Shown here: positions 4,345 to 33,590 of the stretch, piece by piece
Position numbering within the stretch: position 1 is the first letter of the stretch
Layout: each line of letters begins with the position of its first letter
Made by a program: the position numbers and the translations under genes
The notes under the pieces: model-generated
Database searches by the model: none
What the model saw: only the letters and a program-made list of their open reading frames with translations
What the model was told of the DNA's origin: nothing
NCBI GenBank assembly: GCA_021806005.1
Contig: JAJZDM010000025.1
Span: 1-39,334, forward strand
Length of the DNA: 39,334 nucleotides
Origin: Acidobacteriota bacterium
GTDB lineage: Bacteria; Acidobacteriota; Terriglobia; Terriglobales; Acidobacteriaceae
Reading direction: 5' to 3'

Positions 4345-5493
4345 ATGCCCAACGGAAGAATTTCCACTGCGACGATTCCATTTGTGAAGATCTCCTGGAG
4401 AGAGTGGCACCGAGCGGCGGGGTTGGCGGGAGCGATAGCTGCCGTCGCACTTCTGCATTACGATACGCCCACGACCGATATCTGGGTGCATCCACTCCTG
4501 GAGCAGGCCTACTACATTCCCATTCTCCTCGCGGCGCTTTGGTTCGGTTGGAGGGGTGGGCTGGCGGCGGCCTGTCTCTCCGGGATGTCCTATATTCCTC
4601 ACATCATGATGGCCTGGAGCTTTGACCCTGAGTACCGGGCCGCCCAATACATTCAGATTGGAATGTTCTTCGCGATCGCAACCCTGACCGGCATTCTGGC
4701 CGACCACGAGCGTGCCCAACGGAAGAAGGTGGAAGAGACTGCCACGACACTCACTGAGGTCTACACACAGCTTCAGAAATCCATGGAGCAACTCCGTCGC
4801 GCGGACCGGCTTTCGGCTCTGGGGGAGCTCTCTGCGGGCCTGGCCCACGAAGTTCGTAACCCGCTTGGCTCGATCGAGGGCGCGGTTCAGATTCTTGGCC
4901 GCCACGATCTGGCCGAAGAGACACGGCAGGAGTTCGAGGAGATGGCATCGCGCGAGATCGCGCGGCTGAAGGGTTTGGTTACGCACTTCCTGGAGTTCGC
5001 ACGGCCCCAAACTCCGCGGGTCGTAGCGTCCGATGCAGGCCTTCTGCTTCAATCAGTAGCGAAGCTCGCCGCTGAGACCGCCAGGATGGCGAAAGTCGAG
5101 ATCGTCGTCGAGTCTGCTGCAACGGGGCCTTCGATTTTGATGGATCCGGAACAGATGCGGCAGGTTCTCCTCAATCTGACAATCAACGCAACGCAGGCGA
5201 TGCCGAAGGGCGGTAAAATCAGATTACGCGCAGTTCAGGACGACGAGTCGGTCCGGATCGAAGTTGAGGATGAAGGAGTGGGCATCTCGCCAGAAAACGT
5301 GGAGCGAGTCTTTGATCCTTTCTACACTACTCGGAGCGACGGAACCGGACTTGGTCTTCCAATTGCATATCGGATCGTGAGCCAGCATGGCGGGCACATC
5401 GCCGCATGGAAAAACCCAGAACGCGGCATGACGTTCGTCGTGACACTGCCCTTCACCGTCTCTGGCGTCGAAGCAGCTTCCAAAGGACACTAG
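4345..5493 (+). CDS. Membrane sensor histidine kinase, NtrB-like
   Basis: Predicted sensor kinase that phosphorylates the NtrC-type regulator encoded immediately downstream. Residues 25-115 contain about three or four hydrophobic segments with short loops and no large periplasmic domain. A coiled region (120-150) leads to the phosphoacceptor helix, LGELSAGLAHEVRNPLGSIE, with His168. The ATPase domain has the N box NLTINATQAMP, the G1 box DEGVGISPENVERVFDPF and a G2 box GTGLGLPIAYRIV. Length 382 residues. ATG 4345 is chosen over an open frame to 4306 because AGAGG lies nine bases before it. The stop codon directly abuts the ATG of the regulator. The signal is unknown; the position beside Cus-like efflux and cytochrome genes suggests metal or redox stress, which is inference. 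Confidence 0.9.
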   Translation: MPNGRISTATIPFVKISWREWHRAAGLAGAIAAVALLHYDTPTTDIWVHPLLEQAYYIPILLAALWFGWRGGLAAACLSGMSYIPHIMMAWSFDPEYRAAQYIQIGMFFAIATLTGILADHERAQRKKVEETATTLTEVYTQLQKSMEQLRRADRLSALGELSAGLAHEVRNPLGSIEGAVQILGRHDLAEETRQEFEEMASREIARLKGLVTHFLEFARPQTPRVVASDAGLLLQSVAKLAAETARMAKVEIVVESAATGPSILMDPEQMRQVLLNLTINATQAMPKGGKIRLRAVQDDESVRIEVEDEGVGISPENVERVFDPFYTTRSDGTGLGLPIAYRIVSQHGGHIAAWKNPERGMTFVVTLPFTVSGVEAASKGH

Positions 5494-6897
5494 ATGGCGA
5501 ACGAAAACATCCTCGTAGTCGATGACGATCTCAGCCAGAGACGACTGATCGAGTTCTGGCTGAAGGAAGAAGGCTATTCCGTCCTAGCTGCATCCGATTG
5601 CAACACTGGGCTGCAGGCGTTCACCGATGCATCGCCCGCGCTGGTGGTTACCGACATCCGAATGCCAGGTCTCAGCGGCCTGGATCTTCTGGGCCGCATC
5701 AAGGCCATCAATCCCGACACGCCCGTCATTCTGATCACCGCGTTTGGAGCGGTTGGCGACGCCGTTGCCGCTATGAAGCTGGGAGCAGCCGACTATGTGT
5801 TGAAGCCCCTGAATCCCGAGGAACTGAAGGTAAACGTTCAGCGAGCCCTGGAACACCAGCAACTGCTGAACGAAAACCGCTATCTGCGCGATTTCAGTTC
5901 CACCGCCTTTCGGTTTGAGAATCTGGTCGCGGGTTCGAAACGGATGCACCATGTCTTCAGTCTTGCGGCGCAGGTTGCGCGACGCGACTCAACCGTTCTG
6001 GTGACGGGGGAGTCCGGAACAGGCAAAGAGTTGATTGCGAAAGCGATCCACCAGAACAGTCTCAGGGCGGCGAAGCCGTTCATCACGGTGAATTGCGGGG
6101 CTATTCCCGAGAATCTGATCGAGTCGGAGCTGTTCGGCCACCGCAAAGGATCGTTCACAGGAGCCATCGCCGACCGCATCGGGAAGTTCGAATCCGCTAA
6201 CGAGGGTACCGTCTTTCTCGATGAGATCGGCGAACTTCCCGTCAATCTCCAGGTTCGGCTGCTGCGCGTCATTCAAGAACGCGAGATCGATAAGATCGGT
6301 TTTCCAAAGCCCATTCCAGTGAACGTGCGCATCATCGCGGCGACCAATCGGGACCTCCGTATGCTGATTGAAGACGGTCACTTTCGCGAGGACTTGTTTT
6401 ACCGGTTGAGCGTTGTGACCGTCGAACTGCCACCGCTGCGGGAGCGACGCGAGGATATTCCTCTACTGTTCACGCATTTTCTGAAGAAACACTGTAGGCG
6501 CTACAAGTTGCCGATGCCATCCATCAACGAGGATGTCCTGGAGTTCCTGACGCATTACGACTGGCCGGGCAATGTGAGGGAACTGGAGAACGTGGTGGAG
6601 CATGCTGTCGTGCTTGGCACTTCGGAGATAATTCATATCGAGGACCTGCCAGCTCCGATCCGCCAGGCAACGTCCAGAGTGTCCTCGATAAGTCTGAAGC
6701 TGCCCGATGAAGGTATCGATCTCGAGCAAGTGGAAAAGGAGATTCTGCTACAGGCACTCGAGAAGTTCCAATGGAACCAGACGAAAGCGTCTCGCTACCT
6801 GAATATCAGCCGCAAGACGCTCATCTACAGGATGGAGAAGTTCTCTCTGATGCCGCCTGCGTCCACCACGCCGCATATCAACGACGAAGGTGATTGA
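5494..6897 (+). CDS. NtrC-family sigma-54-dependent response regulator
   Basis: Predicted enhancer-binding activator of sigma-54 RNA polymerase, 467 residues, full length. The receiver domain (1-120) has the acidic pair DDD near residue 10, phosphoacceptor Asp54 in VVTDIRMPG and Lys104 in VLKPLN. The AAA+ domain (about 140-380) carries Walker A GESGTGKE (172-179), the sigma-54 contact loop as GSFTGA (219-224, Ser for the usual Ala), Walker B FLDEIGE (241-247) and an R-finger region in ATNRDL. A Fis-type helix-turn-helix closes the protein: NQTKASRYLNISRKTLIYRM. It is the partner of the upstream kinase. Sigma-54-type promoters and repeated dyads elsewhere in this window are candidate targets. 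Confidence 0.95.
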   Translation: MANENILVVDDDLSQRRLIEFWLKEEGYSVLAASDCNTGLQAFTDASPALVVTDIRMPGLSGLDLLGRIKAINPDTPVILITAFGAVGDAVAAMKLGAADYVLKPLNPEELKVNVQRALEHQQLLNENRYLRDFSSTAFRFENLVAGSKRMHHVFSLAAQVARRDSTVLVTGESGTGKELIAKAIHQNSLRAAKPFITVNCGAIPENLIESELFGHRKGSFTGAIADRIGKFESANEGTVFLDEIGELPVNLQVRLLRVIQEREIDKIGFPKPIPVNVRIIAATNRDLRMLIEDGHFREDLFYRLSVVTVELPPLRERREDIPLLFTHFLKKHCRRYKLPMPSINEDVLEFLTHYDWPGNVRELENVVEHAVVLGTSEIIHIEDLPAPIRQATSRVSSISLKLPDEGIDLEQVEKEILLQALEKFQWNQTKASRYLNISRKTLIYRMEKFSLMPPASTTPHINDEGD

Positions 6898-8917: not shown

Positions 8918-9739
8918 TTATCTGCCCATTGTTGGGTGCATAGCCAGCAGAGAGAGGGCCTTGCTCGTCAAGCGACTCTGTTTGGGTCCGTCAAGCCGGG
9001 TCGAAGCAGCCAGCACCGCCGGAACATAGCCCTGAGTTTCAGCAGGGAGAGCAGGCGCCGCAGCCAAAAAGCCGCCTGCCCCGGTTCGTGCCAGAGCCTG
9101 TTGGACGGTCTGCTCGCCTGAGTTGTATGCAGCCAATGCCAGCGACCAATCATGAAACTCGGCATGAAGGTCACGCAGATAGGTTGCTGCCGCACGGGTC
9201 GATTTCACGACATCAAGGCGCTCGTCCCTCCGTGCATCTACCTTCAAGCCGTAGCGCCGCGCGGTATCCGGCATGAGCTGCCATAAACCACGTGCGCCCC
9301 GGGGAGAGAGAGCGGCAGGATCACCTCCGCTTTCTACGACGGCAACGGCTGCCAGTTCTGTCGGTACTCCTGTCTGGCTCAGGATTGGATCCAGGAGAGG
9401 TCGTAAGCGTTCGACCCGCTCGATGCGGGTCCGCATGCCATGGAAGGGCAATGCAATAAACCCCGCTATTGCTCCCGGTTCAGCGAGAGTCGGCTCCGTG
9501 GAGACTCCTGATTGGGGCTGAGCGGCACGGTCAAGGGTTCTGGATGCCGCGCCGGTGAGGTCTGCCTCGTAGACAGCAAATGGATCATTATTGCCAGCGA
9601 TCAGGGCATGGCTGTTACTCTCCTGCCCCAAGGTGGTCGTCGAAGGGAGAGCAAACACCAGCACACACAGAACCCCGAGCCAGACCTGCTGAGCCTTGCT
9701 CCGCCATCGGGTAAGCAGCAAGGAGATCTGCCGATTCAT
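8918..9739 (-). CDS. Lytic transglycosylase (SLT domain) coupled to cusA
   Basis: Predicted periplasmic enzyme that cleaves peptidoglycan glycan strands. Residues 1-40 hold a signal peptide or anchor (VWLGVLCVLVFALPSTTTLG). The catalytic domain (about 105-270) shows the family motifs: ELAAVAVVESGGDPAALSPR with catalytic Glu136, GARGLWQLMPDTARRYG, and ALAAYNSGEQTV. ATG 9739 overlaps the stop codon of the CusA-like gene as ATGA, implying translational coupling; longer upstream frames run inside cusA and are rejected. A muramidase of this type is usually tied to secretion systems or to inserting envelope machines. Here it may open the wall for the tripartite Cus complex, which is inference. Confidence 0.88.
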   Translation of the reverse strand: MNRQISLLLTRWRSKAQQVWLGVLCVLVFALPSTTTLGQESNSHALIAGNNDPFAVYEADLTGAASRTLDRAAQPQSGVSTEPTLAEPGAIAGFIALPFHGMRTRIERVERLRPLLDPILSQTGVPTELAAVAVVESGGDPAALSPRGARGLWQLMPDTARRYGLKVDARRDERLDVVKSTRAAATYLRDLHAEFHDWSLALAAYNSGEQTVQQALARTGAGGFLAAAPALPAETQGYVPAVLAASTRLDGPKQSRLTSKALSLLAMHPTMGR

Positions 9740-12700
9740 TGAACTGACTCCGAGGGAGCAGGACCTGTTCCCGTTGCGGGTGTCGGCCCGTCTCCGGAGC
9801 CATGCCTCATCTGCCACCCACGCCACATCTCGTAGATCACCGGGATCACGATCAGAGTGAGAATGGTCGAGGTGACCATACCGCCGACCATCGGGGCGGC
9901 GATGCGCTTCATGACATCGGCTCCGGTGCCGTGGCTCCACATAATGGGAAGCAGGCCGGCGATGATTGCGGTAACGGTCATCATCTTGGGGCGAACCCGC
10001 ATTACGGCGCCTTCCATAATGGCGTCGTACAAGTCGCGCCGCGTGAGCATGCTCGATTCAGCCCGGCGCCGATCGTAGACCTCGTCGAGATATACGATCA
10101 TGACCACGCCGGTTTCAGCAGCCACGCCTGCCAGAGCGATGAAACCGACCCACACCGCTACGCTGGTGTTGTAGTGGAGCAGATACAACAGCCAAAACCC
10201 TCCGATGAGTGCAAAGGGAAGGGAAAGCATGACGATTGTGGTCTTGGCCAGAGAGTGAAAGTTCGTGTAGAGCAGGACAACGATGATCAGCAGCGTGAGA
10301 GGAATCACGTACTTGAGAGTCTGCTTGGCGTGCTGCATGTACTCCCATTGACCGCTCCAGGTGAGGTAGTACCCTGGCGGGAGTTTGACCTTCTGATTGA
10401 CGGTCTGCATCGCCTGATGAACATAGGTGCCGATGTCCACGCCTGCTACATCCACATAGACGTAGCCCACTGGAACGGCGCCTTCGGTCTTGATGACGGG
10501 AGGTCCCATTGTGATCCGGATATCTGCGAGCTGCGTGAGAGGCACCTGTGCTCCGCCCGGCGTTGCCACCAGCACCCGATCGAGAGCCTGGGGATCGGTT
10601 CGGAAATCGCGCAGATACCGTACGTCCACGGGATAACGCTCGCGGCCTTCGATGGTGGTGCTGATGCTGGTACCGCCGATAGCGGTTTCGATGACATCTT
10701 CGACGTCTGCTACCGTAAGGCCATAGCGAGCAATAGCGTCGCGGTTGATCTTGAAGTCAAGATAGTATCCGCTGGCTGCGCGCTCCGCGTAGACATTCCG
10801 GCTGCCGGGAAGATTGCGCAGCGCGTCCTCGATCTGTTCTCCGATCGTCTGGATGACGCCCAGATCAGGCCCGAAGACCTTGATTCCGATGGGTGTCCGG
10901 ATGCCGGTGGAAAGCATGTCGGTTCGTCCCTTGATGGGCATCGTCCAGGAGTTGGAGACTCCTGGGATGTGAATCGCCGCATCCATCTGGCTGATCAGTT
11001 TGTCCGGGGTCATGCCTTTAGGCCACTGAGCCTCCGGCTTCAGAACGATCGTGGCTTCGCCCATTTCGAGCGGGGCCGGATCGGTGGAGGTGCGCGCCCG
11101 GCCTCCTTTACCGAAGACGGAGAGCACTTCAGGGAACTGCTTGATGATCTTGTCCTCAAGCTGTGTAACCTGGGTGGTCTCGGTAATCGACTGCCCGGGA
11201 AGCCCGCTGGGCATATAAAGCAGGCTGCCTTCGTACAAAGGTGGCATGAACTCCGATCCGAGACGGCGTATGGGAAGAACTGTAACTACCAAGGCGGTGA
11301 GAGCCAGCAGGATCACCGTTTTGGGGAACTTCAACGCCAGGTGCACAAATGGCTTGTACACCCGGATCAGGAAACGGTTCACCGGGTTCTTGTGTTCGGG
11401 CGCTATCCTGCCGCGAATGAAGAGCGTCATCAGCACCGGAACCAGGGTCACGGAGAGCAGCGAGGCAAAGAGCATCGAAAACGTCTTCGTGTAGGCGAGC
11501 GGCTTGAAGAGCCGTCCCTCCTGCGCCTGGAGAGAAAAGACCGGAATGAACGACACGGCAATAATGAGCAAGGAGAAGAACAGCGGTTTACCGACCTCTT
11601 TGGCGGCCGCGAGAATGACCTGGTTGCGGTCCTCCTTTTTCCCTCCTGCCTCCCACCTTTCGAGGTGCTTGTGGGCGTTCTCGATCATCACGATCGCGCC
11701 ATCGACCATGGCTCCGATGGCGATGGCGATGCCGCTGAGCGACATGATGTTCGAGTTCAAATGGATGTAATACATCGCGATAAACATCATGAGAATCGCG
11801 ACAGGAAGCGTCAGGATGGCGACCAGCGCGCTGCGCACATGGAAGAGGAAGATGAGGCAGACGATGCTGACGATGATCATCTCCTCGATCAGTTTCTCCC
11901 TGAGAGTGGCGATGGAATCGAGGATCAGCTCCGAGCGGTCGTAGACCGGTACGATGTTCACTCCCTTGGGAAGGGAACTCGCGATCTGGGCCATCTTCTG
12001 CTTGACTCTGTCTATGAGCGCCAGTGCGTTTTCTCCATAGCGCGCGACGACGATGCCCCCGGCAACCTGTCCTTCGCCATTGAGCTCAGCCATGCCGCGT
12101 CGCATGTCCGGACCGAGATGGACATCCGCCACGTCGCGCAGGTAGATGGGCGTGCCGTCGCCGTTGGTGCCGACGACCACCTTTTGCAGATCGGCGACAG
12201 ACTGGATATACCCGAGCCCCCGCACCATGTACTCGCGGCCGGTATATTCCACAACTCGTCCTCCCACATCGTTGTTGCTCTGGCGGATGGCCTCGATGAC
12301 GCGATTGATGGGGAGATGATAAGCCAGCAGCGTGTCAGGGTTGATGTCCACCTGATACTGCTTCACAAAGCCGCCGATTCCAGCCACTTCGGAGACTCCC
12401 GGCACACTGGCGACCGCATAACGCACGGTCCAGTCCTGGAGACTTCGCAACTGAGCAAGATCGTGCCGGCCGGTCTTGTCCACCAGAGCGTACATGTATA
12501 CCCAGCCGACACCGGTCGCGTCCGGTCCCAGCGTGGGCGTGACACCCGCTGGAAGATTACCGCGGACACCCTGCATGTATTCGACGATGCGCGAACGTGC
12601 CCAATAGAGATCGGTGTTGTCGTCGAAGATGACGTAAACGAATGAGAGTCCGAAGAAGGAGTACCCGCGTACGACCTTGACGTGAGGCGCGGAGATCAAC

Positions 12701-12915
12701 GCCGTAACAATGGGATAGGTCACCTGGTCTTCTACCAGGTCGGGGCTCCGCCCCTCCCACTCCGTAAACACGATCACCTGCTTGTCGGAGAGGTCCGGGA
12801 TGGCGTCAAGCGGCGTATGTTTGAGCGCCCAGATACCCCAGACAACAACAAAGATCAACCCGAGGAAGATGAAGAACCTGTTCCTGTTGCTCCAATCGAT
12901 AACCTTCTCAATCAT
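9736..12915 (-). CDS. cusA: CusA/CzcA-type heavy-metal RND efflux pump
   Basis: Inner-membrane proton-driven pump of the HME-RND group, 1059 residues, full length. The first membrane helix is followed by LDAIPDLSDKQVIVFTEWEG, the family hallmark. The proton-relay helix contains IAIAIGAMVDGAIVMIENAH. Residues matching the three CusA methionines that bind Cu(I)/Ag(I) are present: SLLYMPSGLPGQS, TDPAPLEMGEATIVL and GRTDMLSTGIRTPIGIK. This favours monovalent copper/silver over zinc/cobalt specificity. Its ATG overlaps the stop of the NosL-like gene (ATGA) and its stop overlaps the transglycosylase start. With the CusB- and CusC-like genes upstream it forms a complete tripartite exporter. Regulation may come from a sigma-54-type promoter at 17562-17577. 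Confidence 0.93.
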   Translation of the reverse strand: MIEKVIDWSNRNRFFIFLGLIFVVVWGIWALKHTPLDAIPDLSDKQVIVFTEWEGRSPDLVEDQVTYPIVTALISAPHVKVVRGYSFFGLSFVYVIFDDNTDLYWARSRIVEYMQGVRGNLPAGVTPTLGPDATGVGWVYMYALVDKTGRHDLAQLRSLQDWTVRYAVASVPGVSEVAGIGGFVKQYQVDINPDTLLAYHLPINRVIEAIRQSNNDVGGRVVEYTGREYMVRGLGYIQSVADLQKVVVGTNGDGTPIYLRDVADVHLGPDMRRGMAELNGEGQVAGGIVVARYGENALALIDRVKQKMAQIASSLPKGVNIVPVYDRSELILDSIATLREKLIEEMIIVSIVCLIFLFHVRSALVAILTLPVAILMMFIAMYYIHLNSNIMSLSGIAIAIGAMVDGAIVMIENAHKHLERWEAGGKKEDRNQVILAAAKEVGKPLFFSLLIIAVSFIPVFSLQAQEGRLFKPLAYTKTFSMLFASLLSVTLVPVLMTLFIRGRIAPEHKNPVNRFLIRVYKPFVHLALKFPKTVILLALTALVVTVLPIRRLGSEFMPPLYEGSLLYMPSGLPGQSITETTQVTQLEDKIIKQFPEVLSVFGKGGRARTSTDPAPLEMGEATIVLKPEAQWPKGMTPDKLISQMDAAIHIPGVSNSWTMPIKGRTDMLSTGIRTPIGIKVFGPDLGVIQTIGEQIEDALRNLPGSRNVYAERAASGYYLDFKINRDAIARYGLTVADVEDVIETAIGGTSISTTIEGRERYPVDVRYLRDFRTDPQALDRVLVATPGGAQVPLTQLADIRITMGPPVIKTEGAVPVGYVYVDVAGVDIGTYVHQAMQTVNQKVKLPPGYYLTWSGQWEYMQHAKQTLKYVIPLTLLIIVVLLYTNFHSLAKTTIVMLSLPFALIGGFWLLYLLHYNTSVAVWVGFIALAGVAAETGVVMIVYLDEVYDRRRAESSMLTRRDLYDAIMEGAVMRVRPKMMTVTAIIAGLLPIMWSHGTGADVMKRIAAPMVGGMVTSTILTLIVIPVIYEMWRGWQMRHGSGDGPTPATGTGPAPSESVQ

Positions 12916-17056: not shown

Positions 17057-17452
17057 TCACAGGAGAAACGTGCACAGGGAGGCCTGCGAGCGCCGGAGAC
17101 TTCGCGCCTGGGTGTGCGCGGCTCTCACGCCGAGAGATCCGACAGCGGGGGCACGAAAGACTGCAAGATCCTTGCGAGGAACTGCAATGCTGTACGGTTT
17201 CTCCTGCGCCCTCCGGGGAGGGACGGCAGCCAGGTAATGGCTTTGCAGCTTGCAGCAGTTTGCGGGAACGCTCTTCGCCTCGCGATGATCGGCGGCTGTT
17301 CTTGACGGTGTGACCGCCATCGCCGAACCGGGGGCCCCTCCGCAGCACGCCATGGCGTGAGCAGATGGACTGCATGGAACCGAGGCGAGCACTGGAGCAG
17401 CCAAAAGGGCTATCAACAAGATGCCGGTAACGAGTTTGGCGAGATACTTCAC
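17057..17452 (-). CDS. Small Cys-rich secreted protein, first gene of the cus set
   Basis: About 131 residues. A strong signal peptide (VKYLAKLVTGILLIALLAAP) is followed by an early Cys-rich part: Cys27, the pair Cys36-Cys37 in HAMACCGGAP, and the pair Cys66-Cys67 in PANCCKLQSH. The C-terminal half is basic and without clear structure. The GTG at 17452 is preferred because the signal peptide then starts at residue 1; a TTG at 17482 is the only earlier option. The paired Cys plus nearby Met/His suggest soft-metal binding, but no family is recognised. It opens the minus-strand set and lies about 100 bases below a candidate sigma-54 promoter. Confidence 0.55.
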   Translation of the reverse strand: MKYLAKLVTGILLIALLAAPVLASVPCSPSAHAMACCGGAPGSAMAVTPSRTAADHREAKSVPANCCKLQSHYLAAVPPRRAQEKPYSIAVPRKDLAVFRAPAVGSLGVRAAHTQARSLRRSQASLCTFLL

Positions 17453-17561
17453 CGTGCGCTCATCTTCCTGCTTTTGAATCAAGGCGGCCTGGGACCCGGA
17501 TCATCCCTGCGCCGTCCTGGCTGGAACGCCGAGGACTAGCCGCAGCCACATCTCTCTACAG

Positions 17562-17577: not shown

Positions 17578-17944
17578 TTCCCACTGAGAGAACGAACTCC
17601 TGACACTCTTCGATGGAGCGTGTTACGGGCCGCAGCATTTTCATTGATCATGGGTATCCCGAAGCAGGCTTGCGGCCGCGTAATCATTGGGGGAAAACGC
17701 CGAGAACTGTCGAGGCTTCCCTCTGCACCAACACTGAAAATGCTGTAAGCCTCTTCAGGGAGAAAATGCCTTGAAAAGAGCATGAAGCTTGGAAAACGAA
17801 ACGCTGGGAGAAATGGTTGGCTGTTGCGCCGTGCCGGAATAGGTGCAATTGGGGCAGTGATTGGCTCATATCGGGCAGCAGGCTCCGTGAAAGGTGAGGC
17901 GAGGGCAGGATGGGACGCAGACGTGAGCCGGGGGCGGGCGAGTG
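17578..17944. other. Intergenic stretch between the cus set and the porin gene
   Basis: About 370 bases. No convincing gene on either strand. It holds the region upstream of the cus promoter, including the partly symmetric sequence AGCAGGCTTGCGGCCGCG (17664-17681 region), which could be a diverged activator site. Nothing else was recognised. Confidence 0.4.
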
Positions 17945-19784: not shown

Positions 19785-20153
19785 CTACATAGGCATGCTG
19801 GACCCATCGTGCATGGTGGCAGCGTTGGACTCAGCCACTGAGGTGACGGTGACGGTGTTGCCCTTGACGCTGCCCGAGACCTTCACATGCTTTGCGGCGA
19901 ATGGCGCAATGGTTTGAGGGTTGCCTGCGAGCAAATAGACTTTGTTTCCCACGACAAGCGCGTAGCCAGCGCCGCCTTTTAAGCATTTGGCGACGCATTC
20001 GGCGTTGCTCTTGCTCGTTTTCATATGCGTCCTGCCGCACATGGAGTCGCTGATGACGCCTTCGATGGACCGGGTTGCGGCATGAGCCTGCCGAATTACA
20101 GGAATCATAATGGCGACCAACAGGGTGGCGCTGAAGATCTGTGTCCTTCTCAC
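19785..20153 (-). CDS. Small secreted DUF5818-like protein
   Basis: 122 residues with a signal peptide (FSATLLVAIMIPVIRQAHA). The mature part matches a family common in acidobacteria: SIEGVISDSMCGRTHMKTSK, then NAECVAKCLKGGAGYALVVG, a strand NKVYLLAGNPQTIAPFAAKH and VKVSGSVKGNTVTVTSVAES. The three Cys are conserved in that family, which I know as DUF5818; its function is unknown and the fold is probably a small beta barrel. GTG 20153 follows AGGGAGA and starts the signal peptide, so the open extension to 20264 is rejected. It is transcribed on its own, about 160 bases below a very good sigma-54 promoter candidate. Confidence 0.75.
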   Translation of the reverse strand: MRRTQIFSATLLVAIMIPVIRQAHAATRSIEGVISDSMCGRTHMKTSKSNAECVAKCLKGGAGYALVVGNKVYLLAGNPQTIAPFAAKHVKVSGSVKGNTVTVTSVAESNAATMHDGSSMPM

Positions 20154-20322
20154 GGAGTTCTCCCTTGAAGTTGAAGTGAATGTCAGAAAATGTTCGAGAT
20201 ACCGTTGCCTCGACGGAAGGAGTGCTGACCCTTGTCGGAACCTGCAACCGATAAAGCTCGCCAACCGCCGATACGCTGGAAGATCAACTTGCAGATATCC
20301 GTTTCTCTTCCTGCTTAATCTG

Positions 20323-20341
20323 TTGGCAAGTTGGTTGCCAA
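20323..20341 (-). promoter_or_regulatory. Sigma-54 promoter candidate in a palindrome
   Basis: TTGGCAAGTTGGTTGCCAA is symmetric except at its centre. On the minus strand it contains TGGCAACCAACTTGC: TGGCA, GG and GC ten bases apart, and a perfect TTGC. By symmetry the plus strand also matches (TGGCAAGTTGGTTGC), though no plus-strand gene follows. The predicted minus start site near 20314 lies about 160 bases above GTG 20153. The dyad at 20425-20459 is centred about 128 bp upstream of it. Confidence 0.6.
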
Positions 20342-20424
20342 AGTTCCGCTGAACGAGTCAAGCCCGTAAATCACGCATTTACACGCGTAGACGATCTTCA
20401 AGTGTTGAGAAAGCAGACCTGGAA

Positions 20425-20459
20425 GCCGCATATCAGGCACCTTCTGGCGCATTTCGGGT
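20425..20459. promoter_or_regulatory. Dyad site A, candidate enhancer site
   Basis: Left arm GCCGCATATCAGGCA and right arm TGGCGCATTTCGGGT flank five bases. It aligns with sites B (22343-22377) and C (23257-23291) with the same arm and spacer lengths. Internal symmetry is the weakest of the three (8 of 15). The remaining 20460-20677 contains no recognised gene. Confidence 0.4.
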
Positions 20460-20677
20460 GAGGTTCCGGCGGCACGTAGGCAAGGCTGGCAACCCGATCG
20501 ACTGGTGTTTGCGGCCGAATAGCTGCGCGCCAGGGAGGCACCCTTTCGTAGTAACGACGGAGTCTTTGAGCGACGGGATGCCTTCTCTGCGATCCAGCCA
20601 AGCCTCCGTAACCTGAATGGTGGATGACCAAGCCGTTTGCACCGAAGTTCAGGCGCTGATGGCCTGGCCAGGGCTCG

Positions 20678-21946
20678 TCAATTCCTGCGCTTCAGTGCAT
20701 GTTTCAGTGCGCTCTCCAGCGCCGCTTTCTGCGCGGTGTATGCTTCCGACTCGAGCGTTCCGGAAGCCCGCTTACGCTCCAATGTGAACAGGTCCTCTTT
20801 CAGTCCGCTTAGCATGCTGGCGCCTGATTCCTCAGGCATCTCCGGGGAGGCAAAATGAGGCGCGCCTGGCATAACGGGAATGGACACGCCTTCAGCGCCA
20901 AAAGTCCCAGGCGCTGCGGAGGGCGTTCGCAGAAGAACGCCTGCAGCGACGGCACAGAACAGCGCCAGGCTACCCAGCAGCCACCACTTGTATTTGCTGA
21001 TTGGGTCTGGCCCGCCGGTTCCGGCCCCAAGGCCTTCTCCAGGCTGACTAGCGGATTCGGCCGTTGTCTGGCCGCCCTGTGCGTCCTGCGGCATGGAGCC
21101 TTCTCCAGAGACGGTGAATGCGAGAGTCTGGCCGGGAACGAGGTTGCGGGCCAGGAAGGTCTGTACGGCGGGATCGCCCGGCGCGGGTTGGAACTGCGAG
21201 TTTCCAGCAGCCGTAAAGCTCATGCTCTTCGGCAAGAGTACGCCGAGACTCTGCGTGGGCATCGAAACCTGAGGATGGAACGCGAAGCCGTTGCCGTTGT
21301 ACGGGACCGTGTACTCGATGCCTATGAGGGTGTCCTTGCCTGCCTCATCGGGCTGGATGGGAAGGCTGAAGGTATAACGCCCCTTGGGACCGTTGGCATG
21401 GAGGGTAACGCTCGTGGGCAGGCCGTTGGGTTGTTCGGCTGCTGCTCCCTTGATGGTCGCTTCGGGAGGAAGAACAATCGTAAAGGTATGCCGGCTCCAC
21501 TGCGTGCGTGGCGGCGAACTCGTATTTTGGATAAAGTAGCGCTGGGTGACATGGAGTTGTCCGTTACCGGACTCCAACTCAAAGATGTCAGCTTCGACGG
21601 AAACTTCTTTGATTCTGGTGGCCACATCGTAGACCGCAACATCCCCTGCCGCATCGCCCTGTGCTGCGGCGATGAAATAACCAACGCCCTGGTGCATGAC
21701 GCGAACCAGGTAGGGACCGCCGGCCGGTTCCTTCAGGGAATAGCGGCCCTGAGCATCCGTTTTGGCGGGAGCGGCTTCACTCATGCCGGTTTGTCCATCC
21801 ACCAGGACAACCAGATCGCCCGCAGCCGGCTTTCCCGTGGTTTTATCGGTGACCGTACCGGTTACCGAACCTGACTGCGCCGCAGCCCCGGCAACGAGGA
21901 GGCAGAGAGTTGCACAGCTTGCGAAAGATGACTTGATCGGCTTCAT
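20678..21946 (-). CDS. Secreted carboxypeptidase-regulatory-like domain protein, membrane-anchored
   Basis: 422 residues. A signal peptide (SFASCATLCLLVAGAAAQSG) leads into a CarboxypepD_reg beta domain (SVTGTVTDKTTGKPAAGDLV to about residue 100), a second beta-rich region (about 110-300), a Gly/Ser/Gln-rich linker, one membrane helix (YKWWLLGSLALFCAVAAGVL) and a short cytoplasmic tail. The tail ends with ERKRASGTLESEAYTAQKAA, a helical pattern shared with CcmI-type and NrfG-linked proteins that I associate with cytochrome c maturation loci in acidobacteria. ATG 21946 begins the signal peptide; the frame is open to 21973. The function is not known. A dyad site (22343-22377) lies upstream. Confidence 0.75.
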   Translation of the reverse strand: MKPIKSSFASCATLCLLVAGAAAQSGSVTGTVTDKTTGKPAAGDLVVLVDGQTGMSEAAPAKTDAQGRYSLKEPAGGPYLVRVMHQGVGYFIAAAQGDAAGDVAVYDVATRIKEVSVEADIFELESGNGQLHVTQRYFIQNTSSPPRTQWSRHTFTIVLPPEATIKGAAAEQPNGLPTSVTLHANGPKGRYTFSLPIQPDEAGKDTLIGIEYTVPYNGNGFAFHPQVSMPTQSLGVLLPKSMSFTAAGNSQFQPAPGDPAVQTFLARNLVPGQTLAFTVSGEGSMPQDAQGGQTTAESASQPGEGLGAGTGGPDPISKYKWWLLGSLALFCAVAAGVLLRTPSAAPGTFGAEGVSIPVMPGAPHFASPEMPEESGASMLSGLKEDLFTLERKRASGTLESEAYTAQKAALESALKHALKRRN

Positions 21947-22009
21947 GTTTGCGATGGAATCCTTCCTGGTCACTCCATTTGGCGGTTCTGGGCTGGTTCA
22001 CTCGACGCG

Positions 22010-22215
22010 CTACACTACGGCCGGCAGCAAGATGTCGTGTTCAAGCGGCAACCGCTGCGCGCCACGATTCTGAGCGGGATAGATACCGGCGTGGTGCTCT
22101 ACGGTCAGGTTACGCAGGTCGTCGTAGAGTTGCTGTTTGTGCTGCCAGGCGCCGGAGATACTCCTGTGGCGAGGAGCAGGAGTAGAGCCATCGTGACCAA
22201 ACGTGGCCAAGACAT
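22010..22215 (-). pseudogene. Frameshifted small CcmI-like membrane protein
   Basis: From ATG 22215 the first frame encodes MSWPRLVTMALLLLLATG, a membrane helix, and then loses protein character. One base over, the reading AWQHKQQLYDDLRNLTVEHH and AGIYP appears, which resembles the start of CcmI-like cytochrome c biogenesis proteins (YDxLRxLxxEHxxGxY). It then ends at a TAG at 22010-22012. A single frameshift between helix and soluble part explains it. It is short (about 65 codons) even before breakage. A sigma-54-like match inside it (22176-22190) is probably chance. Confidence 0.45.
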
Positions 22216-22342
22216 AAAGGCCTCTCTGCCGGTGTCTTATGGCACGCGGCGTACCAAAGCGATTTGATCGATGCACAGGCCAGGAAGACCACGCAGATCA
22301 CGGCGATGTGTGTCCTCCACCAACCCCGCAGCGGATGCAGCA

Positions 22343-22377
22343 GGCGCAAATCAGGCATCGCCTGCCGCATTTAGGGC
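22343..22377. promoter_or_regulatory. Dyad site B, candidate enhancer site
   Basis: Left arm GGCGCAAATCAGGCA and right arm TGCCGCATTTAGGGC flank five bases. The core half-sites AAATNNGGCA and TGCCNNATTT are exact. It lies about 380 bp above the start of the carboxypeptidase-regulatory gene; no strong promoter is seen between them. Confidence 0.5.
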
Positions 22378-22769
22378 AGGACGGCGCAGCGAGTTGCGGG
22401 TGAAAGGTGGAGGGAGAGTTGCGCAGGACCCCCCCTGCATCGATAGAAGTTGATCTATGGCACAAGCTGCCGAAGCGAAGGGAACGGTTGAGTATGTTCG
22501 CGGGCATACTCCCGAGGGAGAGCCTTTGACCAGGACATCGATTGTCGCGGAGCCCCGGAGCCACACAGTGAGTTTGACCCGTTGCCGCGGGAGTTGGAAC
22601 TGCCGCGTTGGATGAGTAGGGTCTCTCTCAAGAAGATCCCCCGGGGTTCGCCGGACTCGATGCCGCTGACCCGGCCCCCTGAAGCAACCACAGCCGCCCT
22701 CGAGAGATCGGTCGCAGCGATTGGAAGGATCCAGGAGCATCTGGGCGGCCCGGCCGTACATGCTGACCG
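22378..22769. other. Stretch without a recognised gene
   Basis: About 390 bases upstream of the IS701 relic. Frames on both strands are open for 60-130 codons but show no known motif, no ribosome site and unusual composition. It may be more decayed mobile DNA. Confidence 0.35.
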
Positions 22770-23050
22770 AGATCGTCGCAAAGAGGCGGGGCGGGGGAGG
22801 CGAGCGGTCGTCAAGCCGGTAATCGCGCTCGACCAGATTGACCCGCTATGGGAGAAGGGCCTCGAACGCGGTGCCGTGCTGACCGGCGCCGCTTACGGCA
22901 ACGATCACTGCTTTTGAGGAGAACTGGAGAGGCTGGACCTAGCGTACCCTGCTGGCATCGAATCCTTGAATTCTGTTGAAAGACAGAGTTGTGGTCCGGG
23001 AAGCTGCCAGACCCATTGTGTATGCCAGACTGCAGTTCCGCGGCTTAAGG
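22770..23050 (+). pseudogene. IS701-family transposase relic
   Basis: The plus-strand reading DRDRRKEAGRGRR then VVKPVIALDQI, GAVLTGAAYGNDHCF and, after an in-frame TGA, GELERLDLAYPAGI matches the catalytic centre of IS701-type transposases (D.ARRKKA...KP.IALDQI ... V.LADAGYG....FR..L..LGL.Y.VGI). Downstream, in a shifted frame, TELWSGKLP resembles the family's T-V-W...G..P segment. Stop and frameshift show it is dead. It lies directly upstream of the dyad and promoter of the cytochrome pair. Confidence 0.7.
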
Positions 23051-23256
23051 TGCTTCACCGGTTGCTTCGACACCTTTCCAGAAGCTCCCAAACCTGCCCC
23101 AAAGGATGTCGCGATCGAGCATTCGTTCGTGGCCGCCTCGGGTAGCGACCGGCGACTCACGCATCGAGGCCAACTGCCGCGCGGGGAGATATGCAGGGAC
23201 GTGACGTAGCGTTCGAAACGGGAGCTGTTCAAAAGGCGGTGGCGATAACCGACCTC

Positions 23257-23291
23257 GCCTCAAATAGGGCATGGATTGCCTCATTTGAGGC
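23257..23291. promoter_or_regulatory. Dyad site C, candidate enhancer site
   Basis: GCCTCAAATAGGGCA (23257-23271) and TGCCTCATTTGAGGC (23277-23291) are inverted repeats with 13 of 15 matches, including a perfect 9-bp outer part (GCCTCAAAT / ATTTGAGGC), around TGGAT. Its centre is about 117 bp upstream of the start site predicted from the sigma-54 promoter at 23365-23380, a normal spacing for an NtrC-type activator site. Confidence 0.6.
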
Positions 23292-23364
23292 AGCATCTTC
23301 ACCTGCACGCCTAGCCAAGGCGCTGTTTTGTACGCGCCCAGCTACGTTTTTCGTTTCGGATGTT

Positions 23365-23380
23365 TGGCACACGAAGTGCT
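23365..23380 (+). promoter_or_regulatory. Sigma-54 promoter candidate of the cytochrome pair
   Basis: TGGCACACGAAGTGCT matches TGGCAC-N5-TTGCW with a single mismatch (GTGC for TTGC) and has GG and GC ten bases apart. The predicted start site near 23391 lies about 64 bases before GTG 23455. Orientation, spacing and the dyad upstream all fit the cytochrome-porin gene. Confidence 0.6.
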
Positions 23381-23454: not shown

Positions 23455-24756
23455 GTGATTGTGCGAAGCCATCTCGTTTCTATCTTCTGTGCCACCGGAG
23501 CATTGGTGGCGGTTCTTATGCCGCGCCAGGCAGCCGCTGTTCCACAGTATGCCCGCAGGTTTGGCATTACCTGTTACGCCTGCCACACCATTCCGCCTGT
23601 GTTGAACGAACAGGGCTACATGTTTCAGAAGCTTGGACATCATCTACCGCCTGCCCTGGAAGTATCCAGACCCGTCGAGCGGATTATCGATCTTGTCCGG
23701 AAGGAACGCGAATGGACGATAGCCAATAACGCGTCGTTCGCGGTATCAGATTTCAGCTATCAAGCGCAGAAGAACACGCAGCAGGGACAAGGGTCGACCT
23801 CCACATCTGCCATCGAGGTAGGCGCGTGGAACGCGTACTTTGGCGGATGGCTTCCAGATACAAACTTCTTCTACTACTCGGAGTTTGACATTGTCACAAA
23901 CGGCGTGACGAGTCCGAACATGCCAAACGCGCATATTGGGTACGTAGGCGGCACGGCCAGGAACAGCTGGTACGGCATTGTGGGGCGCGAGCATCTTGAG
24001 GTGTCGGAAGGAACTCGTGCTTCAGAGGTGTACAGCCTTCTACCGAACTCTCCTCTGATCTTTGAGAATCAGGGCCCCACGAATTTTATCCTCGATCAGT
24101 CTCCGGTCGGCGCCGCGGTTGGGTATACCTGGGCCTCGTCGATGTACAAGCGCATTGCGAGCGTCAACATGAAGGTGACCGACGGCGACAACGCGGATGG
24201 AAGTGAAATTCTCGGAACTTCGAGCAAGAACGGCAAAGACATCTGGGCCGATGCCGACTTCTGGTATGCGCCGGAGAGTGGCGTGAGCGTTATCACTTAT
24301 CAGGGAAAGAAGAGTCAGATTCAGAACCTGGGACTCGCCAATCAGTTCACCTACAACGCCCGCATACGGCGCGAAGGCGCATTCGCCAACTACATGATCG
24401 GGCGCGACAAGGTGGACCTGTTGGGCGGATACCTGCATGGAGACGACGACTGGCAGGATCCGACAACCCAGGCACCGGGGACGTATCTGACCAACGGCGG
24501 ATTTGGTGAAGCGGATTACTACATCTGGCGGGGGTTGGCGCTGGCGTCCCGGTATGACCGTCTGAGGCAGGATGTGACTGGAGGGCTGCATCCGACCACC
24601 CTTGAGCAGTGGCAGGTAGGCGCAGAAAAGGCGTTTACCCCAATGGGCAACGTCGTGGGACGTATTGCAGGGGGGAACTCCCACGGCGTGGACCCGGTAG
24701 CCCTGACCGGCAGCGCCAGTCGGACCATTGAGGCGGATATTCAATTCAATTTCTAG
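23455..24756 (+). CDS. Fused monoheme cytochrome / outer-membrane barrel (Cyc2-like layout)
   Basis: 433 residues. A signal peptide (ending near RQAAA) is followed at once by one heme c site, TCYACH (Cys40, Cys43, His44), within VPQYARRFGITCYACHTIPP and VLNEQGYMFQKLGHH. The rest, about 360 residues, has alternating beta strands and ends in ADIQFNF with C-terminal Phe, as outer-membrane barrels do. The order N-terminal heme, then barrel, and the pattern CxxCH...P.LN..G..F...G match fused cytochrome-porins such as Cyc2, which move electrons across the outer membrane during iron oxidation. GTG 23455 follows AAGGAG by six bases. A diheme cytochrome gene follows 21 bp later. Electron donor and direction are unknown; sequence similarity to true Cyc2 beyond the layout has not been measured. 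Confidence 0.75.
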   Translation: MIVRSHLVSIFCATGALVAVLMPRQAAAVPQYARRFGITCYACHTIPPVLNEQGYMFQKLGHHLPPALEVSRPVERIIDLVRKEREWTIANNASFAVSDFSYQAQKNTQQGQGSTSTSAIEVGAWNAYFGGWLPDTNFFYYSEFDIVTNGVTSPNMPNAHIGYVGGTARNSWYGIVGREHLEVSEGTRASEVYSLLPNSPLIFENQGPTNFILDQSPVGAAVGYTWASSMYKRIASVNMKVTDGDNADGSEILGTSSKNGKDIWADADFWYAPESGVSVITYQGKKSQIQNLGLANQFTYNARIRREGAFANYMIGRDKVDLLGGYLHGDDDWQDPTTQAPGTYLTNGGFGEADYYIWRGLALASRYDRLRQDVTGGLHPTTLEQWQVGAEKAFTPMGNVVGRIAGGNSHGVDPVALTGSASRTIEADIQFNF

Positions 24757-24777: not shown

Positions 24778-25389
24778 ATGATGAACCAGAATGTTCTATG
24801 GCGTGTTCTTTTGACAGCTTCCTTGAGCGCGCTTTTGGCAGGAGCTACTTCAGCCGTCGCCCAGGTTGGGACCCACGAAGACAATGTGAAACTTGATGTC
24901 GGGTCTTACCCGGTCGACATTCAACACGGCTACAAGTTGTTTGCGAGCAAATGCTCAGAATGCCACAGCCTGACCCCCAGCCTGAAACAATCACGTTCAG
25001 CTGAAGGATGGGCACAGGAGGTCCGTCGGATGCAGGCGATGGCGAGTTCTCACATCAACGACAGGGAAGCCCACCTGATCACCAATTTCCTTGTCTACGT
25101 GGATGTTCATAGGAGTGCTGCCGCGGGCGATACGGCAAGCGGCGGAGCCGGAGGTTCTCCTGAGCAGGCAGGAAAACAGACGTTCGATTCGTATGGCTGC
25201 TCGTCCTGTCATTCTGTGGGCGGCGCCGGCAATACAAGTGCCCCACTGGACGGAATCGGAAGCAAGGAGACGGCCGATGCGTTGAAGAAGCTGATCACCT
25301 CGCCGCCCTCCGAGAGTTCAATGCCCGCAATGGATGTGCCGGCCAAGGACCTGAATAACTTGGTTGCCTACCTGCTCTCGCTGAAGTGA
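24778..25389 (+). CDS. Periplasmic diheme cytochrome c
   Basis: 203 residues with a signal peptide (LLTASLSALLAGATSAVAQV). Two heme c sites lie about 80 residues apart: KCSECH (Cys59, Cys62, His63) and GCSSCH (Cys141, Cys144, His145). The second half is a class I cytochrome c fold with a candidate axial Met in SSMPAMDVP and the closing helix DLNNLVAYLLSLK; the first half has lost much of the fold. A Gly/Ser-rich linker joins them. GAGGAG precedes ATG 24778. It lies 21 bp after the cytochrome-porin and is probably its periplasmic electron partner. No terminal oxidase or quinone oxidoreductase partner is in the window. Confidence 0.88.
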   Translation: MMNQNVLWRVLLTASLSALLAGATSAVAQVGTHEDNVKLDVGSYPVDIQHGYKLFASKCSECHSLTPSLKQSRSAEGWAQEVRRMQAMASSHINDREAHLITNFLVYVDVHRSAAAGDTASGGAGGSPEQAGKQTFDSYGCSSCHSVGGAGNTSAPLDGIGSKETADALKKLITSPPSESSMPAMDVPAKDLNNLVAYLLSLK

Positions 25390-30794: not shown

Positions 30795-30985
30795 CAGTGC
30801 GTTAACCTTAGTTCTGCTAGCGCAAAGGAATGTTCGGGAAGCGCGGTGAGACTCCGCCACTGCCCCGCAACTGTGATGCGCGCGCCTCGGCCCTACCGCT
30901 CGCCCTTGAGCAGCGCCTGGACCAGGTGAGGCCAGCCCAGAGCCGCCCACGGATCGTCCAAAGGACATCGGGAAGGGCGTATCTC
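30795..30985 (+). ncRNA. Cobalamin riboswitch
   Basis: The conserved adenosylcobalamin-sensing core is visible: GCGCAAAGGAATG, then GGGAAGCGCGGTGAGACTCC, GCCACTGCCCCGCAACTGTG (the B12 box region), and further along AGGCCAGCCCAGAGCCGCC and a closing CATCGGGAAGG. The order and spacing match the class. It lies about 100 bases before a TonB-dependent receptor gene, so high B12 should lower receptor synthesis. The exact ends are approximate. Confidence 0.85.
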
Positions 30986-31085
30986 TTGAAGTGAAGAGCT
31001 GACCTTGAAATCGCGCCAGTCAGGAGACCGGTTCCTCTGTGGTTGTGCCTACCACGCCTCCGTAGGGGGGGCGGAGGAGATGAGT

Positions 31086-33590
31086 ATGCGTTTTTCTGTG
31101 GGTCCTACCTGGTTGGGTAACGGACACTTCCAGCGCGCCAGCCTGGCCCGGCGCGCCGCCTTCACACTGCTGACCGTTGCTCTTCTTTCTACCGTCGCGC
31201 AGGCTGTGGTGGTTCGCGGACATGTGACGGATGCACTGGGAAAGCCGGTTCCGGGCAGCCTGGTGCGGCTGATACAGGACCACAAGGTGGTCGCCATGGA
31301 TTATGCGGACGCCAAGGGCGCCTTTGAGATTCGGTACGCCGAGGCGGGACGGTTTACCCTGGTCGGCACGGCAGGGGGCTATCTGCCCGCGGTGGGCATG
31401 GAGATCTACGGCGGCGCAACCGATGTGGTGCAGCAGGATGTGGTGTTGTCCTCCAACACCGTGCGCCAGGACGTTACGGTGAGCGCGACCGGGATCCCGA
31501 CGCCGTTGCCGCAGCTTACCTCCCCGGTGAGCGTGATTCCGCGGGAGGCGTTCTCCATGCAACCCGACCTGATCGACGCGATGCGCCAGGTTCCGGGTGT
31601 GTTCATGGTGCAGACCGGGCAGATGGGCGGCGTGACCAGCCTGTTTCTGCGCGGAGGCAGTTCTACGGCGAACATGGTGATGGTGGATGGCACGCCGGCC
31701 GATGACGTGGGAGGAACGTTCGACTTTGGAACGGTGAGTTCGGCGGCGGTGGGCAGCGTGACGGTGGTGCGCGGGCCGGATTCGGCGATGTATGGAACCG
31801 ATGCCGGCGCCGGCGTGATCACGCTGGATACCCCGAAGGGAACCACGGCCGAACCGCTGCTGGACTATGAGGGCGATGCAGGCGATCTGTGGACTTATCG
31901 CAACCAGGTTTCGCTGGGCGGGGTGATCCAGGGGCTGGATTACTACACCGCGTTCTCACGCCTGGATACCTCCAACGCGCTGCCGCTGGACGAGTACCAC
32001 ACGGAGACCGAGGCGGCCAACATCGGCTACAACTTTGCGGGCACCACCCAACTACGCTTCACGCTGCGCAACGCGGATTCCGTGCAGGGTGTGCCGGGCG
32101 CCTGGGACTTCCAGGGTGTCTCTCAGAGCAACCGGCAGGCCGACCAGGATCTCTTTGCGAGCATGACGGCGGAGAACTGGTACAAGGGCAGGTGGCACAA
32201 CCTGGTGCGCTACGCGATCGCCCGCAAGCGGGAACAGGAGCAGGAGTTCGCCGCCGGCGGAAACTACCTGACCTACGATCCGGGAGCGTACGGGCCGGGC
32301 AACGTGGGCAATGTGGTGACGATTCGCGGAGCCAACGGATACACCGCGACCGGCCAGGTACAGCTCTTTACGGGCAACAACTATGACCAGGACAGCAACC
32401 TCGACGAAGTGTACTACCAGTCGGATTACAGCTCTTCGCCGCACATGGTGGGGCTCTTCGGCTTCCGCTATGACAATGAACGGGGCTCGTTCAACGACTA
32501 CGATCCCAGCTATGACTATGTGGAACACGAGTCCTTGCACCGCCCGAACTTCGAGTTCAACCTGCAGTTCCAGGGCGAGTTCTGGCATCGCCTGTTTTAT
32601 TCTGCCGGAGGCGCGGTGGAGAAGAACCACCTGTTTGGCATCGCCGGGACGCCGAGGATCGGCCTGACGTATGTTCCCGTACGGCCGGCGCACACCCTGT
32701 TTCACGGAACGCGGCTGAGGGCCAACGTGGCGACCGGCGTGCAGGAACCGACGCTGGCCGTCCAGTTTGAAAGCCTCTACACGCAACTGCTGGCGGCGGG
32801 GGATACAACCGATATTGCGCTTTATCACATTACGCCGCAGGGGCCCGAGGACTCCCGTACCTATGATGTGGGCGTGGACCAGAGCATCTTTGGCGAGGCG
32901 CTGGTGCTGAAGGTGGGTTACTACCACAACATGTTCAACAACCAGTTGGAGGGGGTTGATGCCCAAGCTCTGGACCAGTACTTTGGCTTGAATATCAATC
33001 CCGGCGTCGGGCTGTATGAGGCGTATGTGAACTCCCTGGCCTACAGCGCCCAGGGAGCGGAGGCGGAGTTGATATGGCAGCCGCAGCCGCACTTTCTGTT
33101 CCGCGCAGGCTACACCTACATGGATGGGAGGGTGCTGCAGTCGTTCTCTTCCGATGCCGTGGCGGCGCTGCAGGGAACACCAACGGAGAACCCGAACCTG
33201 CCGGGGATTCCCATCGGCGCCCTGAGCCCCCTTGTGGGGGCGCGTCCGTTCCGCAGAGCGCCGAACTTCGGCTCCTTTAGCGCGGAGTACACACATCGCC
33301 GCATGATCGTTGCCCTGGATGGCGCCGTGGCCAGCCGTAGTGACGACTCCACCTTCCTGGAGAATGAGGATCTGAACGGCGGCAATACGCTTCTGCTGCC
33401 CAACCGAAACCTGGACTTCGGGTACACCAAGCTGGACATGAACATGAACTTTCAACTGAAGCGGGGGTTCTTTTACTTCGCCCAGTTCGACAACCTGCTC
33501 AACGACCAGCATATTGGCCCGATTGGGTACCCGTCGCTGCCGCTTACGTTCCGTACCGGGCTGGAGCTTCGGCTGGGGGGCAAACAGTAG
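31086..33590 (+). CDS. btuB: TonB-dependent receptor, likely for cobalamin (BtuB role)
   Basis: 834 residues. A signal peptide (AFTLLTVALLSTVAQA) is followed by a carboxypeptidase-regulatory-like domain (VVRGHVTDALGKPVPGSLVR), the plug (QDVTVSATGIPTPLPQLTSP and LIDAMRQVPGVFMVQTGQMG, then FLRGGSSTANMVMVDG) and a 22-strand barrel that ends in a TonB-receptor C-terminus (FFYFAQFDNLLNDQHIGP and FRTGLELRLGGKQ). The cobalamin riboswitch upstream makes cobalamin or a cobinamide the likely ligand. ATG 31086 lies eight bases after GGAGG; ATG 31080 is too close to it. The N-terminal beta domain is common in Bacteroidetes and acidobacterial receptors and absent from E. coli BtuB. No BtuCDF-like genes are in the window. 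Confidence 0.88.
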   Translation: MRFSVGPTWLGNGHFQRASLARRAAFTLLTVALLSTVAQAVVVRGHVTDALGKPVPGSLVRLIQDHKVVAMDYADAKGAFEIRYAEAGRFTLVGTAGGYLPAVGMEIYGGATDVVQQDVVLSSNTVRQDVTVSATGIPTPLPQLTSPVSVIPREAFSMQPDLIDAMRQVPGVFMVQTGQMGGVTSLFLRGGSSTANMVMVDGTPADDVGGTFDFGTVSSAAVGSVTVVRGPDSAMYGTDAGAGVITLDTPKGTTAEPLLDYEGDAGDLWTYRNQVSLGGVIQGLDYYTAFSRLDTSNALPLDEYHTETEAANIGYNFAGTTQLRFTLRNADSVQGVPGAWDFQGVSQSNRQADQDLFASMTAENWYKGRWHNLVRYAIARKREQEQEFAAGGNYLTYDPGAYGPGNVGNVVTIRGANGYTATGQVQLFTGNNYDQDSNLDEVYYQSDYSSSPHMVGLFGFRYDNERGSFNDYDPSYDYVEHESLHRPNFEFNLQFQGEFWHRLFYSAGGAVEKNHLFGIAGTPRIGLTYVPVRPAHTLFHGTRLRANVATGVQEPTLAVQFESLYTQLLAAGDTTDIALYHITPQGPEDSRTYDVGVDQSIFGEALVLKVGYYHNMFNNQLEGVDAQALDQYFGLNINPGVGLYEAYVNSLAYSAQGAEAELIWQPQPHFLFRAGYTYMDGRVLQSFSSDAVAALQGTPTENPNLPGIPIGALSPLVGARPFRRAPNFGSFSAEYTHRRMIVALDGAVASRSDDSTFLENEDLNGGNTLLLPNRNLDFGYTKLDMNMNFQLKRGFFYFAQFDNLLNDQHIGPIGYPSLPLTFRTGLELRLGGKQ

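Follow-up and report, generated by a model that had tools for sequence, protein, structure and literature searches.

At the glnA gene, NtrC binds tandem sites situated about 90 and 140 base pairs (bp) upstream of the sigma-54 start and activates transcription through looping of the DNA. The sections of PMC7408454 that deal with this enhancer report that its distance can be extended to 1000 bp or more, and that helical phasing of activation loops has been demonstrated, but not in the case of glnALG. NmpR of Myxococcus xanthus is described, in the part of PMC11841059 concerned with its sites, as an NtrC-like response regulator with two dyad sites (GCGCA-N5-TGCGC, preferably 14-15 bp between sites) per sigma-54 promoter, of which the proximal one is necessary, and with targets in oxygen utilization. 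The tandem-site enhancer design is already known, and a counterpart was found in the window analysed here, a stretch of 39,334 nucleotides from an Acidobacteriota bacterium of the family Acidobacteriaceae (assembly GCA_021806005.1, contig JAJZDM010000025.1), which carries three copies (A, B and C) of a long dyad. It is likely, in our judgement, that all three act as sigma-54 enhancers (upstream activating sequences) and serve a single small regulon, each offering two dimer sites to an NtrC-type regulator, most likely the one encoded at 5494-6897. The enhancer set itself is very probably real, placed before genes for haem proteins and metal-related envelope proteins, and a cognate two-component regulator is probable.

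As at glnA, the sites are tandem and activation would proceed by looping, whereas the distance to the promoter, which according to PMC7408454 can be extended at glnA, varies by no more than a few bp among the members of this regulon. As with NmpR, each sigma-54-like promoter has two dyad sites and the proposed activator is an NtrC-like response regulator; the proximal site, the necessary one in M. xanthus, is the better conserved one here, and the candidate targets, which lie in oxygen utilization there, are haem and metal genes here. In contrast to the NmpR site, the unit here reads TGCC-N8-GGCA with 5 bp between 16-bp units. Acidobacteria are absent from the main text of the sigma-54 survey PMC12316311, and none of the open-licence PMC papers found on sigma-54 or RpoN work concerns, by title or abstract start, an acidobacterial enhancer. 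Neither this motif nor this regulon is named in the literature found, the coverage of which is partial.

Three dyads confined to one cluster

A sequence-only reading of this DNA had reported dyads at 20425-20459 (A), 22343-22377 (B) and 23257-23291 (C), and direct reading, shuffled sequences and a genome-wide search all bear them out. The core AAATNNGGCA-N5-TGCCNNATTT has two exact matches in the window and none in 100 shuffles. The half-site, previously called exact in B, is also exact in C, while A, the weakest copy, departs from the flanked motif at 3 of its 18 positions. The arms of C are complementary at 13 of 15 positions (87%), just as had been stated for the third site. With up to three mismatches the 18-position motif is matched three times in the window (0.02 expected) and at three places in the whole 4.16-Mb genome, all of them A, B or C. 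Since the backwards control pattern also gives two genome places, A is unable to stand on its own score; with the 22-position motif there are three places and none for the control. All three places in the genome lie in this cluster, and the dyad is not scattered, which would have spoken against the sigma-54 enhancer reading. A chance repeat is ruled out by the shuffles, the expected count and the searches of this genome and of 398 genomes of the family, set against their controls.

The same results bear on the idea that the dyads are ends of mobile elements, repetitive extragenic palindromic (REP)-like repeats or transcript hairpins. Inverted repeats of 35 bp with a 5-base loop could fold, and three copies do stand within 2.9 kb, but there is no scatter in the genome, the sites are not among the terminator-like sites of the window, no Rfam family is found at A, B or C at the gathering threshold, and the conservation is oriented to the promoter (see below). 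A hairpin, a terminator or a known RNA is thus unsupported, and we regard this explanation as scarcely credible.

Wide conservation of the exact dyad was considered and rejected: at up to two mismatches, 5 other genomes out of a set of 80 have one place each, and the control gives five places in four genomes. A scan of all genomes matched at least 114 stretches, and among the 80 loci listed one (L088) is named Acidobacteriaceae, where a gene that by eye looks CRP/FNR-like (25-540) ends just before the dyad at 598-624.

Paired units at a near-fixed distance from the promoter

Each 15-bp arm is a palindrome in itself, TGCC-N8-GGCA, and for this reason the element would be better described as two adjacent, tandem Fis-type dimer sites 21 bp apart than as one dyad. 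When 21 dyads are oriented to their promoters (the 19 strong dyads defined below plus one each from loci L206 and L215), the two palindromic units are each centred 10.5 bp from the middle of the dyad, on opposite sides. The resulting logo gives the proximal unit the consensus TGCC[GT]GATTTG[CA]GGCA, with GCC and GGC near-invariant (19-21 of 21 at each of the six positions). The distal unit is less well conserved, with a strong inner half (AAATGCGGCA) and a looser outer half, and the spacer favours GGAGG. The NtrC sites of glnA differ from these elements in sequence and in spacing.

Enhancer A (20424-20460, reverse strand) comprises 16-bp units at 20424-20439 (proximal) and 20445-20460 (distal), 21 bp centre to centre, and the DNA around it aligns to locus L184:9405-9558 of genome G425 with 74% identity over 157 bp. 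Enhancer B (22342-22378, reverse strand) has its proximal unit at 22342-22357 and its distal one at 22363-22378; in enhancer C (23256-23292, forward strand) the distal unit is at 23256-23271 and the proximal at 23277-23292.

All three are followed by a sigma-54-like -24/-12 element, so that paired palindromic activator sites stand upstream of a -24/-12 promoter, the arrangement by which sigma-54 enhancers are recognized. We placed the predicted start 24 positions beyond the first T of TGG and measured from the dyad centre. By this convention the element of A (20325-20340, reverse strand, TGGCAACCAACTTGCC) lies at 126 bp, the same distance as TGGCAATCAACTTGCC in L184, and that of C (23365-23380, forward strand, TGGCACACGAAGTGCT) at 115 bp. 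The element of B (22241-22256, reverse strand, TGGTACGCCGCGTGCC) lies at 128 bp and is identical in G200 (L173, 128 bp) and in G425 (L184, 129 bp). The sequence-only reading had put A and C at enhancer distance, which holds, with 128 and 117 bp instead of the 126 and 115 given here; it had missed the promoter of B, and B belongs to the enhancer set as much as A and C.

This spacing extends to related genomes. The window and 16 loci of G200, G294, G146 and G425 together make up 331 kb and contain 19 strong dyads (score at least 25). For 17 of these, a sigma-54-like start lies at 113-131 bp, measured from the dyad centre, compared with 426 among 34,000 random positions (1.25%); weaker elements accompany the remaining two, at 115 bp (L181) and 127 bp (L183). 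Most distances fall at 125-130 bp and a few at 115-116 bp. The result is not circular, because the dyad matrix leaves the promoter out; the 19 dyads are not independent, because several of the promoters are orthologous. Long dyads are typical of many repressors, and the CRP/FNR-like-looking gene ends beside the L088 site, so one could suppose that the dyads bind a repressor or another regulator outside the sigma-54 system and that the sigma-54-like sequences are near by chance. The distance is fixed for 17 of the 19 dyads, and for all 19 once the weaker elements are counted, while under the stricter cut-off 1.25% of random positions show it; together with the asymmetry between proximal and distal units relative to the promoter, this makes such a reading very improbable.

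Some loci of the relatives show variations of the arrangement. Single dyads flanked on both sides by sigma-54-like sites at matching distances were seen in L213 (4752-4784, 137 and 138 bp), L179 (6392-6424, 138 and 117 bp) and L171 (12624-12656, 130 and 116 bp); a single enhancer might thus work on two promoters that point away from each other. Overlapping dyad matches exactly 21 bp apart and facing one promoter occur in L180 (16672/16693), L215 (9682/9661), L206 (9173/9194) and L171 (6299/6320), which suggests three tandem units, some of the partners being dyads from which the motif was derived.

Further sigma-54-like sites in the fetched loci have a unit, alone or as a pair, upstream of them, with distances of about 94, 105, 116, 127, 138 and 148 bp. 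A unit-plus-promoter pattern gave 53 matches in 100 genomes of the family, against 12 for the control, and once three motif-source matches are dropped, the other 50 are phased with a period of 10.9 bp (p = 2e-4), though some matches have a promoter in common. A second sample consists of 36 units that neighbour sigma-54-like sites in the loci retrieved, and there the phasing is again significant (R 0.79, p = 2e-4); these units were hand-copied at a score of about 12 or more and 90-152 bp, many are orthologous, one comes from a motif-source dyad, and some promoters of G146 occur in both samples. Phasing was not found in 29 further matches of the family, after one duplicate sequence (G206, the same as G272) was dropped (p = 0.29; p = 0.65 for the 25 without motif sources), nor in 84 matches from other families of the class (p = 0.97). 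About half of the matches in the two class scans are due to chance, since a hand count found 35 and 39 places for the control where the scans themselves had 65 and 63 matches. Units with an A/T core are found in 4 of 6 carriers of the regulator treated below and in 2 of 94 other genomes (Fisher test; the units were sorted by hand, and G000, the genome of the window, and G146 are motif sources).

The near-fixed spacing between dyad and promoter thus holds for this regulon, and phasing across the family is kept as a lead, because two of the four samples show it significantly but the third and fourth do not confirm it. It is possible, though we think it rather doubtful, that paralogous NtrC-type activators of the family share the TGCC-N8-GGCA unit at these helically phased steps, with a single unit or with two, now and then three, set 21-22 bp apart; such enhancers would be stereospecific, with a rigid geometry in place of a tolerance for distance, and their specificity would lie in the core of the unit and in the spacing.

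The candidate regulator and its distribution

The proposed activator (5494-6897, forward strand) is a response regulator of the NtrC family, with a receiver, a sigma-54 interaction AAA+ domain and HTH_8, all above the Pfam cut-offs. Its best solved-structure relatives are NtrC-family regulators and ZraR. What we take to be the Walker motifs and the receiver aspartate motif were located in its sequence, which reads GSFTGA at 219 in place of GAFTGA (the exact form is absent), a variant that may serve as the sigma-54 contact loop. In the recognition helix region, 18 of the 19 aligned sequences (the window's among them, with identities down to 66%) share ISRKTLIYRMEK. NISRKTLIYRMEK is not identical in all of them, since three of the 18 have S for the N preceding ISRKTLIYRMEK and L218 (59%) differs. 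Directly upstream lies a sensor histidine kinase (4306-5493, forward strand; HisKA, HATPase_c), in which a hydropathy scan found no segment above our cut-off. The genome also has an RpoN gene (G000:C82; PF04552 over cut-off).

Dyad and regulator were compared in the 398 genomes drawn from the family, which we take as the set for both searches. The 22-position motif, with up to three mismatches, is matched in 15 genomes, ten with one place, which is chance level (the backwards control gives 14 places in 12 genomes), and five with two or more: G000 (3), G146 (2), G200 (3), G294 (3) and G425 (4). Relatives of the regulator at E up to 1e-160 occur in 16 genomes, and those of at least 83% identity in six (G000, G425, G200, G294, G278 and G146). 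All five multi-dyad genomes are among these six and none among the other 392 (Fisher p = 7e-11). Three genomes that keep the cytochrome gene without a regulator match at E 1e-160 (G029, G013 and G039) have no dyad place at up to four mismatches in the stretches retrieved from them. In G200 and G425 the kinase-regulator operon itself has a dyad in front of it, which stands between that operon (157-158 bp) and a 114-residue gene on the other side (127 bp). The sequence-only reading had named the 5494-6897 regulator as the protein to bind the dyad, and relatives do keep dyad, sigma-54-like promoter and regulator together. From this co-occurrence we infer that it probably binds A, B and C.

Several observations weigh against this assignment and against the enhancer reading as a whole. 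Further sigma-54-like matches, mostly weaker, lie near A, B and C (those of B at 72, 102 and 194 bp), and the weights given to positions, the score for sigma-54 elements and the cut-off at 25 are of our own making and were fixed after the scores had been seen. G278 has the regulator (84%) but shows one dyad in its 10.8-kb contig, missed by the pattern search, just above the score cut-off and 126 bp from a sigma-54-like site. Five of 12 loci with regulator homologues of 58-73% have a weak dyad at 124-128 bp, and four of the 12 (L208, L209, L218 and L219) have none. No dyad precedes the kinase-regulator operon in the genome of the window. The regulator adjoins pump and cytochrome genes in several genomes, so co-occurrence is no proof that it is the binder. 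The genomes listed in the regulator search also have 29-141 possible paralogous activators each (unscored first-look candidates), and these, together with the related units before other sigma-54-like sites, mean that another paralogue could bind.

The sites might then be sigma-54 enhancers for a paralogous activator coded elsewhere, with the 5494-6897 regulator a mere neighbour. Besides the many candidates and the similar units before other promoter-like sites, the sameness of ISRKTLIYRMEK in 18 of 19 homologues down to 66% identity favours this explanation. We nevertheless hold it unlikely, given that multi-copy dyads occur in five of the six genomes that carry a close relative of the regulator but are absent from the remaining 392, and that the dyad stands before the kinase-regulator operon in G200 and G425. 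In addition, tblastn found one such protein each in the window and in the fetched dyad regions of G200, G294 and G146, a single one on the four dyad-carrying contigs of G425, and no second activator of this type in the dyad regions or contigs of those four genomes.

If the 5494-6897 regulator is the activator, a signal would act on the kinase at 4306-5493, which would lead to phosphorylation of the regulator; its dimers would pair on the enhancer, where 16-bp sites 21 bp apart correspond to two helical turns, and form an active AAA+ ring. The DNA would then loop and the ring open the promoter, 115-128 bp distant, at which the sigma-54 polymerase waits.

Genes behind the proposed enhancers

The products behind the dyads look, from their sequences, like envelope redox and metal-handling proteins. 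Behind A lies a frame for a small protein (19785-20264, reverse strand, start codon uncertain) with no Pfam or NCBIfam match, whose homologues in G294 (L176) and G425 (L184) also follow a dyad. The B-type promoter precedes, in G425, a small gene, ccmF, a ccmH-like frame, a ccmI-like frame and a gene with a CarboxypepD domain. G200 has the same order after only the start of the small gene. CcmF and CcmH are named by Pfam in G200, and "ccmI-like" is a label by position, without a Pfam match. Relative to these two genomes, the window has behind promoter B a deletion junction (21989-22215, reverse strand) without ccmF and the ccmH-like gene, where 24 codons of the small-gene start (22215-22144) abut a match to the ccmI-like tail (22144-21989). 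No ccmF match above chance was found within the window, and an assembly fault at the junction is possible because the genome is a draft. The next gene encodes a CarboxypepD_reg-domain protein (20678-21973, reverse strand), the homologue of which follows the ccm genes in G200 and G425.

The gene behind C (23455-24756, forward strand) encodes an apparently exported protein of 433 residues with one CXXCH haem motif, and the next gene downstream a c-type cytochrome (Cytochrome_CBB3; 24778-25389, forward strand). The 433-residue protein has no Pfam match, a solved-structure search gave one match at chance level, and its AlphaFold2 model, built from 7 sequences, has a predicted local distance difference test score (pLDDT) of 28. 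In the part of PMC8406198 that defines them, Cyc2 cytochrome-porins have the motif AXPXFAR[Q/K][T/Y], CXXCH, PXL, at least 365 residues and a fused 16-strand porin. The 441-residue protein behind a dyad in G200 (L171:9710-11035) has the exact motif (AVPSFARQT) as well as CXXCH and PXL, whereas the window protein has only CXXCH and PXL, besides the length. We therefore rejected the latter as a Cyc2, its AVPQYARRF lying outside the strict motif, and consider it a near match.

Elsewhere a dyad precedes a multihaem cytochrome (G425) and the first gene of the pump operon (G294). In the window the neighbouring operon contains a pump gene of the CusA/CzcA-family RND type (9736-12915, reverse strand), and upstream of it lies a degenerate fourth dyad (17842-17876, reverse strand), with no sigma-54-like element at 60-260 bp above the 12.2 cut-off; such an element does accompany the weak dyads of L173 (137 bp) and L184 (138 bp). 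Near the head of this operon we also noted a small frame with a CC pair (17057-17482) and no family match above cut-off, and farther on a cobalamin riboswitch (30796-31051) that scores above its Rfam threshold and lies at the start of a gene (31005-33590) whose product has a TonB receptor plug domain.

The analysis yields a candidate site, regulator and regulon, the last comprising haem proteins, cytochrome maturation and metal efflux, in Acidobacteria of uncultured type. The near-constant distance between enhancer and promoter would make this regulon a clean case for helical phasing in sigma-54 activation.

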